Origin: Chthoniobacterales bacterium
Lineage (GTDB): Bacteria > Verrucomicrobiota > Verrucomicrobiia > Chthoniobacterales > UBA10450
Direction of reading: 5' to 3'
DNA length: 64,000 nucleotides
Assembly (NCBI GenBank): GCA_035274845.1
Contig: DATENU010000009.1
Coordinates: forward strand, 310,001 to 374,000
Shown here: piece after piece, positions 35,871 through 63,080 of the stretch
Numbering within the stretch: position 1 is the stretch's first letter
How the letters are laid out: the number at the start of each line of letters is the position of its first letter
Position numbers and translations under genes: made by a program
The notes under the pieces: generated by a model
Seen by the model: the letters and a program-made list of their open reading frames with translations, nothing else
What the model was told of the DNA's origin: nothing
Database searches by the model: none

Positions 35871-36494
35871 ATGAAAATAAAATTACTAATCAGTCTGATA
35901 ATCGCCGTTGTCGCGATGGCGCTCAGTCCCATGACATGGGCTCGGGGGGGCGGCGGTGGTGGCGGTGGCGGTCACTTCGGTGGTGGCGGTCACTTCGGTG
36001 GCGGCGCTCGCTTCAGTGGCAACCGAGGAGGATTTCGTTCCAACGGAGCCCGATTCGCGCGTCCTGGATTTTCCGGCCCACGGGTGATGAACTCAAACCG
36101 GTTCGTCGGTCGTCAGGGTGCCAATTGGCACCGTGACTGGGATCGACGCCATGATCACCGCTTTGGCGGCCACCGGTTCCGCTTCATCGATGGCTTCTGG
36201 TGGGACCTGGATCTGTGGCCGTACGATTACTATGCGTACGACGACTACCCGTACGATTACTACGATTACCCATCCGACAACTATAGCGATGCCAACTATA
36301 GCGATGCGACTGTGAGCGCAGTCCAATCGGAATTGACGAGGCTCGGTTACTATCGTGGCGCCATCGACGGGGTTTACGGTCCACAGACGCGGGGCGCGCT
36401 TGCCCGTTATCAAGGGAGACAAGGCTTGCCTAAAACCGGCAGCATCACGACCGCGACGCTTCGATCACTCCGAGTGCCGGCGGGAGCCAGCTAA
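35871..36494 (+). CDS. Exported Gly-rich, Tyr/Asp-rich peptidoglycan-binding protein
   Basis: This is a 207-residue paralogue of the protein at 33254. Its parts are a signal peptide (ending TWARG), a pure Gly/His/Phe tract (GGGGGGGHFGGGGHFGGGA), the shared NWHRDWDRRHDHRFGGHRF segment, a Tyr/Asp repeat (WPYDYYAYDDYPYDYY), and a C-terminal PG_binding_1 domain (about 145-203, LTRLGYYRGAIDGVYG, RGALARYQ, TGSITTATL). The Gly/His tract has many spaced His and could bind metal. Leader element copy 11 precedes it. Together with 6574 and 33254 it makes three wall-binding proteins behind the same element. Confidence 0.85.
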   Translation: MKIKLLISLIIAVVAMALSPMTWARGGGGGGGGGHFGGGGHFGGGARFSGNRGGFRSNGARFARPGFSGPRVMNSNRFVGRQGANWHRDWDRRHDHRFGGHRFRFIDGFWWDLDLWPYDYYAYDDYPYDYYDYPSDNYSDANYSDATVSAVQSELTRLGYYRGAIDGVYGPQTRGALARYQGRQGLPKTGSITTATLRSLRVPAGAS

Positions 36495-46195: not shown

Positions 46196-47782
46196 TCAGT
46201 GCTTCTCGCCTGAACTCTCGAAAGCGCCGTTGCCTTCATCGAGGTAGATCGTCTCACCCAGGGACGAAATCCGCAGGTGCTGACGCCATTGACCGGACGG
46301 AAATTTGCGGGTGGCCTCGATCGTCTTGCTGACCGCTTCAATTCGCTCGCCTTTTTCATTCATCGCCTCGATCAAAACGCGACCGTCGAATTTCTGCGGC
46401 GTCTCGACTCCCAGAATGTGCAAAACGGTCGGCGCGATATCGAGGTTGCTGCTCGGCAAAGTCGTGGCGGCGCCTTTTCGAAAATCCGGGCCGGCGGCGA
46501 TGAGCGTGTTGTGCACGTCGAACTCGCTCAAGGTAACGTGGGTGCCCGTTCCGGCGGGGCGAGCGTTGTCGGCGATGACGTGTCCGGGAACGCCGAACTG
46601 ATTGGGCTTCCTGTTCCAGCGCAACGCGACCATGACGTCCGGCGCGTCCGGACTGTTCACCCGGCCGAACTCCAGCGGGAAAGTCCCTTCGAATTGTTCG
46701 CGGGCGAAAATGACGCCGGCAAAATCGGAGCGTTGCAGCCATTCGACGAGGCGCGCGGTAACGTCGCGGTCGTGCTCGATGACGTAGAAGAGAATCGTGC
46801 CGGCGTTGTGGGCGGTGATGACCTGACCGCGCTTTGGCGTCTCGGTAAACGAAGTCTTCGCGTCAAAGCCGGCTTTGCCCAGCTCAGCGGAGAAGTCGAT
46901 CGCGCGTTCGATGGTGGAGAAGCCGTGATCGGAGACGACGAAAATATCAGTGGACGCGCGCGCCTTCTTCTTTTCCAAGGCATCGACGACAACCGAAAGG
47001 TTGCGATCGGAGCTGCGAATGGCGGCCAGGCAAGCCTCCGAACCCGGAGTGGAATCATGCTCGGCCAGGTCAGGTTCATTGAGCCAGAGAAGGGAGAATG
47101 CCGGAAGCCCGTCGCCCCAGAGCATCTCGGTGAGAGCCCGGGCTGCGTAGCGGTTTCGTTCGTCGCTTGTTTCAGCCGGTTGAGGGAGCAACGGTCCGAG
47201 AAGCCGAATCGTTTCTTCGCGTAACGTCGCCGCCATCGGCGCGGCGGCGAATTTCACCGCATTCTTCAATTCCGCGTGAGTCCATTCCGCGTGGCGGTCG
47301 TGCAAAAAGGCGACCGATTTTGTTCCGGCGACCGCTGTCTTCCGGCCGGCCGCGCGGAGCAGCTCCGCGATGGTCGGCGTGGCCACGTACCGGCCACCGG
47401 TCACTTCGTCAGCCTTCTTGATTAACTCCCAGTCCGCGTTGTCGAAGACCTTGCGGGCGTCGATGCCAGGACGGAATTCGCGGTTGGCGATGATCCCATT
47501 CCGGCCCGGGAAAACGCCGGTCGCGATGGCGGCGCCATTAACGTTCGTAGCGGTCGGATAGACGGAGTGGTGATGAGTGAAGGTGACGCCTTCCTGCGCG
47601 AGTTTCCAAAGCGTGGGGGTGTTGCGTTCGGTAACGAAGTCGGGGCGCATCCCGTCCCAAACCACCACGACAACGTGGCGATCGGTGGGCGGGTTTTCGC
47701 ACCGGAGGACTGCGGGAAAAAAGACGAGGAATAGGGAAAACGTCCAACGCCCAACGTCCAACGTCCAACGTCCAACGTCCAA
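46196..47782 (-). CDS. Exported alkaline-phosphatase-superfamily phosphodiesterase
   Basis: This is a 528-residue type I phosphodiesterase/nucleotide pyrophosphatase of the alkaline phosphatase superfamily. A heptamer-encoded start (DVGRWTLDVGRWT) is followed by a hydrophobic signal segment (FSLFLVFFPAVL). The metal site is visible in VVVVVWDGMRPDF (first Asp), the nucleophile Thr in HSVYPTATNVNG, the second site in DIFVVSDHGFST, and the third in AGTGTHVTLSEFDVHNT. It should cleave phosphodiesters or pyrophosphates in the periplasm. The reading as given starts at a TTG within a heptamer array; the array lies where slippage would change the frame, see the repeat at 47741-47782. Confidence 0.85.
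   Translation of the reverse strand: MDVGRWTLDVGRWTFSLFLVFFPAVLRCENPPTDRHVVVVVWDGMRPDFVTERNTPTLWKLAQEGVTFTHHHSVYPTATNVNGAAIATGVFPGRNGIIANREFRPGIDARKVFDNADWELIKKADEVTGGRYVATPTIAELLRAAGRKTAVAGTKSVAFLHDRHAEWTHAELKNAVKFAAAPMAATLREETIRLLGPLLPQPAETSDERNRYAARALTEMLWGDGLPAFSLLWLNEPDLAEHDSTPGSEACLAAIRSSDRNLSVVVDALEKKKARASTDIFVVSDHGFSTIERAIDFSAELGKAGFDAKTSFTETPKRGQVITAHNAGTILFYVIEHDRDVTARLVEWLQRSDFAGVIFAREQFEGTFPLEFGRVNSPDAPDVMVALRWNRKPNQFGVPGHVIADNARPAGTGTHVTLSEFDVHNTLIAAGPDFRKGAATTLPSSNLDIAPTVLHILGVETPQKFDGRVLIEAMNEKGERIEAVSKTIEATRKFPSGQWRQHLRISSLGETIYLDEGNGAFESSGEKH
47741..47782. repeat. Heptamer tandem repeat CGTCCAA x 6 at the start of the phosphodiesterase gene
   Basis: Six consecutive 7-base units (one with a T to C change) cover 42 bases. 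On the minus strand the unit is TTGGACG and encodes the DVGRWTL pattern in whichever frame is read, because 7 is not a multiple of 3. An ATG on the minus strand at 47798 lies 16 bases ahead of the TTG start and is out of frame with the mature protein by one base; loss of one unit would bring it into frame. Confidence 0.85.
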
Positions 47783-47813
47783 TGTGAGAGAGAAGCATCG
47801 GTCGTTGATTGAG

Positions 47814-48272
47814 TTATTCCCTGGCGAATTTGGGAGGGACGAGCCAGCGCAGCTCGCCTTTCATCGAACCGGGATCAAGCTGGACCAGAGCGACGCCCGC
47901 TTTGGGAAGCTTGGTCTCGCCGCCGGTCAATTGAAAGATGGTCCGCGTGAAATCGGGTTCGTGACCCACAACCATCAGGCTGTCGCCGGCAAAGTCCTTG
48001 AGCAGCTTCTTCAGGTTGGCGGCGTCGAAGCCGGGGCGGAGAAGGGGATCTACGCGAACTTTCTGCTTCAGATATTTGCCCGCGATTTCGGCGGTTTGAC
48101 TCGCGCGTGGCAGCGGACTCGTAAAAATGGCGGGGGAAATTTCGAGCTGCTTCAGGAGTTTCGCGACGGCGGCGACCTGGACCTTGCCCTCCTCGGTCAG
48201 CGGGCGTTCGTCGTCGGGCTTGCGCCAATTCGGCCAATCGGCTTTTCCGTGACGAAGAAAATAGAGCTTCAT
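47814..48272 (-). CDS. sixA: SixA-type histidine phosphatase
   Basis: This is a 152-residue member of the histidine phosphatase superfamily. It opens MKLYFLRHGKADW with the catalytic RHG motif near residue 7, then RPLTEEGKVQVAAVA, a SPLPRASQTAEI Arg site, and the second catalytic His in VVGHEPDFT. SixA-type proteins remove phosphate from phospho-His in phosphorelay HPt domains. The start is the MKLYF Met (48272), since upstream residues are unlike the family. It lies 31 bases after the phosphodiesterase start, on the same strand but in a separate region. Confidence 0.88.
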   Translation of the reverse strand: MKLYFLRHGKADWPNWRKPDDERPLTEEGKVQVAAVAKLLKQLEISPAIFTSPLPRASQTAEIAGKYLKQKVRVDPLLRPGFDAANLKKLLKDFAGDSLMVVGHEPDFTRTIFQLTGGETKLPKAGVALVQLDPGSMKGELRWLVPPKFARE

Positions 48273-62243: not shown

Positions 62244-63080
62244 ATGACCGTCCTGGAATTGCTCCAAACGACAACTGCCTACTTTAACAAGCGCGGAGTG
62301 GAGAGTCCGCGGTTGAACGCGGAGCATTTGCTCGCGCATGTTCTGGGGCGGAAACGGCTCGAACTCTATCTCGAGTTTGAACGCCCTCTGGTGGAAACGG
62401 AATTGGCGCCCCTGCGCGAATTGGTCAGGCGCCGCGGCCAGGGAGAACCGCTCCAGCATTTGCTCGGCACCGTGGAGTTCGCGGGACAGGTCTTCCTTTG
62501 CGACAAGCGAGCTTTGGTTCCGCGGCCGGAGACGGAGCACCTCGTGGAGCTGCTCCAATCGAGAATCGAGAATCGAGAATCGAAATTTCTGGACGTCGGC
62601 ACTGGCAGCGGAGTGATCGCCCTCAGCCTCGCGGCGAAATTTCCTGGGGCAAAAGTAACGGCAACAGATGTCTCCGACGATGCGCTTGCGTTGGCGCACG
62701 AAAACGCCGAACGGCTTGGTCTAACTGACCGCGTAACCTTTCTTAAGAGCGAGCTGCTGACATACGTCAGTGACGTATATGACCTGATCGTCGCGAACCT
62801 GCCTTATGTCGCGGAGACGGATCGGGCGACGCTTTCGCGCGAAGTGCGGCACGATCCGGAGATCGCGCTTTTCGGTGGGGAACGGGGGGACGAAATTGTG
62901 CGCAAGCTGATTGAAGCGGCCCCGTCTTATCTTGCGCCGGGCGGTTTGCTGGCGCTTGAACTAGGGTTGGGGCAGGCGGACGATTTGGCGGCGTTGATGG
63001 CAGAAAAGAATTATCACGACATCGAACAAATGCGCGATTATGGCGGTGTGACACGATTCCTTTTTGGGCGGTATGGATAA
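62244..63080 (+). CDS. prmC: Release factor glutamine methyltransferase
   Basis: This is a 278-residue N5-glutamine methyltransferase that modifies the GGQ Gln of RF1 and RF2. The N-terminal helical domain (1-75) is followed by the SAM-binding DVGTGSGVIALSLAAKFPGA-type loop (I give only DVGTGSG as landmark), a second Asp in ATDVSDDALALA, and the catalytic NxPY motif read here as NLPYV in DLIVANLPYVAETD. The classical sequence is NPPY; NLPY is an unusual but seen variant. The heptamer array at 62558 lies between the helical and SAM domains. A truncated copy of its 5' end lies at 59732. The stop overlaps the murA start by 8 bases. Confidence 0.92.
   Translation: MTVLELLQTTTAYFNKRGVESPRLNAEHLLAHVLGRKRLELYLEFERPLVETELAPLRELVRRRGQGEPLQHLLGTVEFAGQVFLCDKRALVPRPETEHLVELLQSRIENRESKFLDVGTGSGVIALSLAAKFPGAKVTATDVSDDALALAHENAERLGLTDRVTFLKSELLTYVSDVYDLIVANLPYVAETDRATLSREVRHDPEIALFGGERGDEIVRKLIEAAPSYLAPGGLLALELGLGQADDLAALMAEKNYHDIEQMRDYGGVTRFLFGRYG
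62558..62585 (+). repeat. Heptamer repeat ATCGAGA in prmC
   Basis: Three perfect units plus one with a change (ATCGAAA) lie inside the prmC coding region and encode SRIENRESK. The loop between the helical and catalytic domains tolerates this, but a change of one unit would shift the frame. Confidence 0.75.

Follow-up and report, generated by a model that had tools for sequence, protein, structure and literature searches.

A tandem heptamer array spans the start of a phosphodiesterase gene in a 64,000-nt stretch of a Chthoniobacterales genome (hereafter, the window). Such an array raises the question of whether changes in unit number switch the start of translation, or whether the repeat came to lie within the gene by another route.

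The array at the start of the phosphodiesterase gene

The relevant features, all on the minus strand, are as follows.

46196..47782, minus strand: type I phosphodiesterase / nucleotide pyrophosphatase family protein (PF01663) with a signal peptide-like N-terminus (open frame and Pfam)
47714..47740, minus strand: pyrimidine-rich tract 3' of the array, coding FSLFLVFFP, the signal peptide's hydrophobic stretch (sequence)
47741..47782, minus strand: six tandem TTGGACG units, the fifth being TTGGGCG (sequence, TRF and shuffle comparison)
47759..47761, minus strand: second in-frame TTG, in unit 4 (third from the 3' end), a candidate start (sequence and arithmetic)
47780..47782, minus strand: in-frame TTG in unit 1, a candidate start (open reading frame)
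47796..47798, minus strand: upstream ATG, out of frame at six units; its counterpart in congener G001 (five units) is in frame
47814..48272, minus strand: SixA-like histidine phosphatase gene (PF00300), upstream on the same strand (open frame and Pfam)

The original prediction described six CGTCCAA units (TTGGACG on the minus strand) at the N-terminus, and this description holds, with one unit reading TTGGGCG. From 47798 to 47741 the minus strand consists of the ATG and 13 further bases followed by the six heptamers, in the order ATGCTTCTCTCTCACA, four TTGGACG units, TTGGGCG and TTGGACG, after which TTTTCCC begins. TRF reported 6.3 copies with 94% matches and a score of 81, the second highest in the window after a row scoring 84 at 35964-36019. 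The longest exact period-7 run was 25, compared with 10 or fewer across 60 shuffled windows; the six-unit array is thus real and far beyond chance.

The frame arithmetic was likewise as predicted. The ATG at 47798 lies 16 nt ahead of the first TTG, and with six units the distance becomes 58 nt (16 + 42), out of frame; loss of one unit (51 nt) or gain of two, giving eight (72 nt), restores the frame. The earlier account left out the second in-frame TTG, at 47761. Since 7 equals 1 modulo 3 and the unit is stop-free in every frame, the third unit counted back from the 3' end has a TTG in frame at every array length, and a TTG start therefore tolerates any unit number of at least three.

Read from the TTG at 47782, the open frame encodes 528 aa and matches PF01663 at 6e-37; the stop codon of the sixA-like gene lies ~31 nt ahead of the array. 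A search for sigma-70 promoters and terminators at this locus found none above chance expectation. Comparison of the window gene with that of congener G005 gave dN 0.18 and dS 1.16 (dN/dS ~0.16), and dN/dS between G005 and G006 was 0.15. There was accordingly no sign of relaxed selection, and the gene is under purifying selection, so that the enzyme is presumably expressed despite its out-of-frame ATG.

A dispersed family with conserved positions

TTGGACG arrays occur at ~35 sites of the window's genome (G000), most of them in intergenic sequence or before an ATG, so that tandem 7-bp units are found at many loci of one genome. Exact matches to TTGGACGTTGGACG numbered 40 and were spread over most of the genome's 24 contigs (reversed control, 0), while a degenerate pattern gave 110 matches genome-wide (control, 0). 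The heptamer array was found in 8/8 genomes of the genus and 71/213 genomes of the order, and the longer form TTGGACGTTGGACGTTGG in 11/288 genomes of a phylum-wide draw. Those genus records that have names are MAGs, and their labels point to palsa (Spartobacteria), Antarctic and soil-depth samples. Loci were examined as separate genome stretches, with one genome per species compared. In four genus genomes the modal unit number was 5 (23/37, 18/31, 5/8 and 9/10 arrays), and in G082, from another family of the order, it was 4; unit numbers were mostly 4-5 across the genus, and no wide range was found among these relatives. The literature searched contained no report of a TTGGACG repeat sequence in a bacterium.

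The positions of the arrays are conserved between species. Array loci of G000 cover ~5% of its genome, from which we estimate that ~1.4 matches would be expected in G005; in fact, 18 of the 29 G005 array loci were orthologous to G000 array loci, as were 6/10 in G001 and 3/12 in G007. Orientation was equal in nearly all matched loci, and unit numbers differed by one or a few. Considering that identity at four-fold sites between G000 and G005 is 0.50, synonymous sites are near saturation while many arrays keep orthologous positions. From one orthologue to the next, the gap between array and ATG differed by just 0-6 nt, as in 12/12/12 (L043, L074, L199), 11/9 (L031, L082), 14/15 (L041, L061) and 10/11 (L053, L078). 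G000, G005 and G001 have all kept an array 5' of trpA, and G082 also has one near trpA, where contigs end nearby (L033 3324-3347; L091, L112).

To place arrays relative to genes, we called genes with a simple 3-periodic Markov caller written for this analysis, with arrays masked and starts uncurated. In G000 and G005 together, arrays lay in 20/54 divergent but only 1/45 convergent intergenic regions (Fisher P = 9e-6), and in co-directional regions 25 pointed toward the start and 12 away (P = 0.02). The gap from array to start codon was commonly 2-20 nt. In both genomes the arrays are followed by pyrimidine-rich sequence of a kind not observed before other starts. A location mostly outside genes, with orientation to a nearby start, was thus seen in the genus; it was weak in G082, as was the 5' bias. 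Arrays called within genes were antisense in 21/21 cases (G000 and G005), some of these ORFs being doubtful and perhaps spurious, and some co-directional regions had an additional array in the opposite orientation, past the stop of the upstream gene. Genes near arrays are largely housekeeping, e.g., trpA, starch synthase, HrpB helicase and an SDR dehydrogenase. In one clear case of an in-gene array, the antisense TTGGACG units follow the heavy-metal-binding motif CPMHPEV...CPKCGMTL of a protein (L052, L080, L116, L207) and code a KRPTxNVQRPTS linker, whose place is unchanged in four species.

Cyanobacteria carry genome-wide intergenic heptamer arrays, the STRR sequences. The closest known system is the TAACTGA repeats of marine Beggiatoaceae, which are dispersed tandem heptamers, mostly intergenic and facing a start codon only a few nt away, with no functional gene class and a patchy phylogeny; an effect on translation has been proposed for them but is unproven (PMC4679880). 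TTGGACG arrays share all of these features of sequence, placement and distribution, but they have another unit, usually a pyrimidine tract between array and ATG, common inverted pairs, and demonstrated conservation of position from species to species. In Xanthomonas and Nostoc, GGGNATC repeats are also genome-wide intergenic heptamers with a preferred unit number, 4, but they form G-quadruplexes and avoid divergent regions (PMC4692102). The arrays described here resemble them in preferring a unit number (5 in the genus, 4 in G082) and differ in favouring divergent regions and in that GGG is found in few units. Because their positions are conserved among species in an uncultured soil group, the TTGGACG arrays offer a comparative test of whether dispersed heptamers 5' of genes are functional, a question raised by both the TAACTGA and the GGGNATC repeats.

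The phosphodiesterase locus among congeners

In 4/7 congeners (L003, L005, L007, L008), the array lies between the sixA-like gene and the phosphodiesterase gene, 5' of the latter's own ATG, which opens a good signal peptide (MELK... or MKSP...). In L006 the ATG is present without an array, and L002 has a different upstream region, also without an array. Only in the window and in L004 (G001) is the array fused into the coding sequence. Alignment showed that the ATG segment is gone in both, with the array and pyrimidine tract read into the signal peptide. Since both genomes are missing the gene's own ATG, the array has turned into N-terminal coding sequence. G001 has the same ATG and 16-nt leader as the window but five units, and its ATG is in frame, with the product MSLSSFGRWTLGVGRWAFLLFFFAALPVVALGQS; among clear arrays at this locus, unit numbers were 4-6. 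A single deletion common to the window and G001 was considered and rejected, since the phosphodiesterase gene tree groups the window with G005 and G006, apart from G001 (moderate support). Two independent losses of the ATG therefore appear more likely, and judging from the gene tree the loss probably happened twice. At a second locus, whose CNQCH...CTDCH motifs indicate a probable multihaem cytochrome, two species (L058, L213) likewise have an array absorbed into a signal peptide; the starts there are GTG or ATG and lie in frame.

Explanations for the array

Taken together, these results favor the explanation that the array is a dispersed, position-conserved heptamer repeat of 5' leaders that was absorbed into the signal peptide, with translation probably starting at a TTG; we consider this reading rather likely. 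The array belongs to the genome-wide GTTGGAC family, which in this genus sits on the coding strand in 5' leaders shortly before start codons and is followed by a pyrimidine tract. Ancestrally, to judge from the four congeners, it would have occupied the short spacer between the sixA-like and phosphodiesterase genes, ahead of a normal ATG. In the window's lineage the ATG segment, which the alignment shows to be missing, was presumably deleted; the array and pyrimidine tract now supply the signal peptide with its n- and h-region, and the translation start is most likely a TTG within the array. The locus exemplifies a non-coding repeat becoming part of a signal peptide. The step of which we are least confident is that leader arrays probably act at the RNA level near the ribosome-binding region, where they might provide a binding site or an unstructured leader, as proposed for TAACTGA repeats. 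Any function of the leader arrays, including an effect on translation, is an inference. The weak 5' bias in G082 and the two congeners without an array at the phosphodiesterase locus count against the leader reading, and a pure leader function leaves the antisense in-gene arrays and the second, opposite arrays unexplained. A bolder version, which we regard as doubtful, is that the GTTGGAC arrays of Chthoniobacterales-type soil bacteria amount to a conserved leader code that acts post-transcriptionally and is convertible to signal-peptide coding; a dedicated RNA-binding factor would read about five heptamers immediately ahead of dozens of start codons.

The original prediction proposed instead that slippage would bring the ATG at 47798 into frame or take it out, so that initiation alternates between this ATG and a weak TTG. 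Part of this stands. A change in unit number does shift the frame of the upstream ATG, species differ by one or a few units in their arrays at orthologous sites, and the comparison with relatives that had been suggested as a check found five units with the ATG in frame in G001 against six units out of frame in the window. Phase variation at the phosphodiesterase locus is therefore possible, the window being one unit from the in-frame state. The switch itself fared less well as an explanation of the array: unit numbers are narrow, with a mode of 5 in each of the four genus genomes; the TTG start within the array survives changes in unit number; four congeners carry the array 5' of the gene's real ATG; and array-adjacent genes are largely housekeeping. 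Moreover, most family arrays precede an ATG or are intergenic, where unit number cannot shift the frame. Viewed as a whole, the family is not suited to frame switching, and we consider a slippage switch improbable here. The precedent for 7-bp arrays upstream of a phase-variable gene is the promoter repeat of Haemophilus hmw1A, reported as a single contingency locus where unit-number variation alters expression (PMC8262952, PMC2424069); TTGGACG arrays resemble it as a heptamer array ahead of a gene but differ as a dispersed family known here from sequence comparison between species. A repeat near a start codon is thus not automatically a phase switch.

A serious, although less likely, possibility is that the arrays form a neutral, dispersed satellite of heptamers, which slippage and copying would have spread and which is tolerated without function in spacers and hydrophilic linkers. 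Such a satellite would fit the antisense arrays in protein linkers, the patchy spread across order and phylum, and the similar behavior of other heptamer families (CGTCATT, and AATCGAG in the window); it does not readily account for the bias toward divergent over convergent regions, or for position, orientation and start distance being kept at near-saturated synonymous divergence. An identity with integron-type core sites is largely refuted and very improbable, even though 88-100% of internal units fit GTTRRRY and IntI scored above cut-off in four congeners (G001, G003, G005, G007). No heptamer array lies within the IntI regions, whose attC-like sites have GTTAGRY or GTTAAAT cores and do not share the array sequence; G000 and G082, both array-rich, have no IntI above cut-off; and the arrays sit between conserved neighbours rather than in cassettes. 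Mobilisation of the RAYT/REP type was rejected because Y1_Tnp matches in G000 do not adjoin listed arrays, as was a mobile element with inverted termini, since spacers between inverted pairs are unconserved and no target duplications were seen by eye.

Several further elements were observed. Full-length integron integrase matches are present in G001, G003, G005 and G007 (L219-L223), that of G003 with an internal TGA, and candidate attC sites of ~122 bp lie near IntI in several congeners; the window's genome is without IntI above cut-off. Several relatives have another dispersed heptamer family, CGTCATT (e.g., G014:C66:537-642, G018:C187:5276-5392 and L054 ~11150), often as inverted pairs with arms outward, ~60-160 bp apart. 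In the window, an AATCGAG x3.9 array at 62557-62583 lies within a PrmC/HemK-like methyltransferase ORF and codes SRIENRESK immediately N-terminal of the LDVGTGSG motif. Finally, a GC-rich hairpin-like repeat (~GCCTGCCCGCCGCAGCCTTGCGGAGGAGG) seems to be inserted within heptamer arrays at L059 3662-3736, L060 near 2489, L083 near 2575 and the L008 leader.
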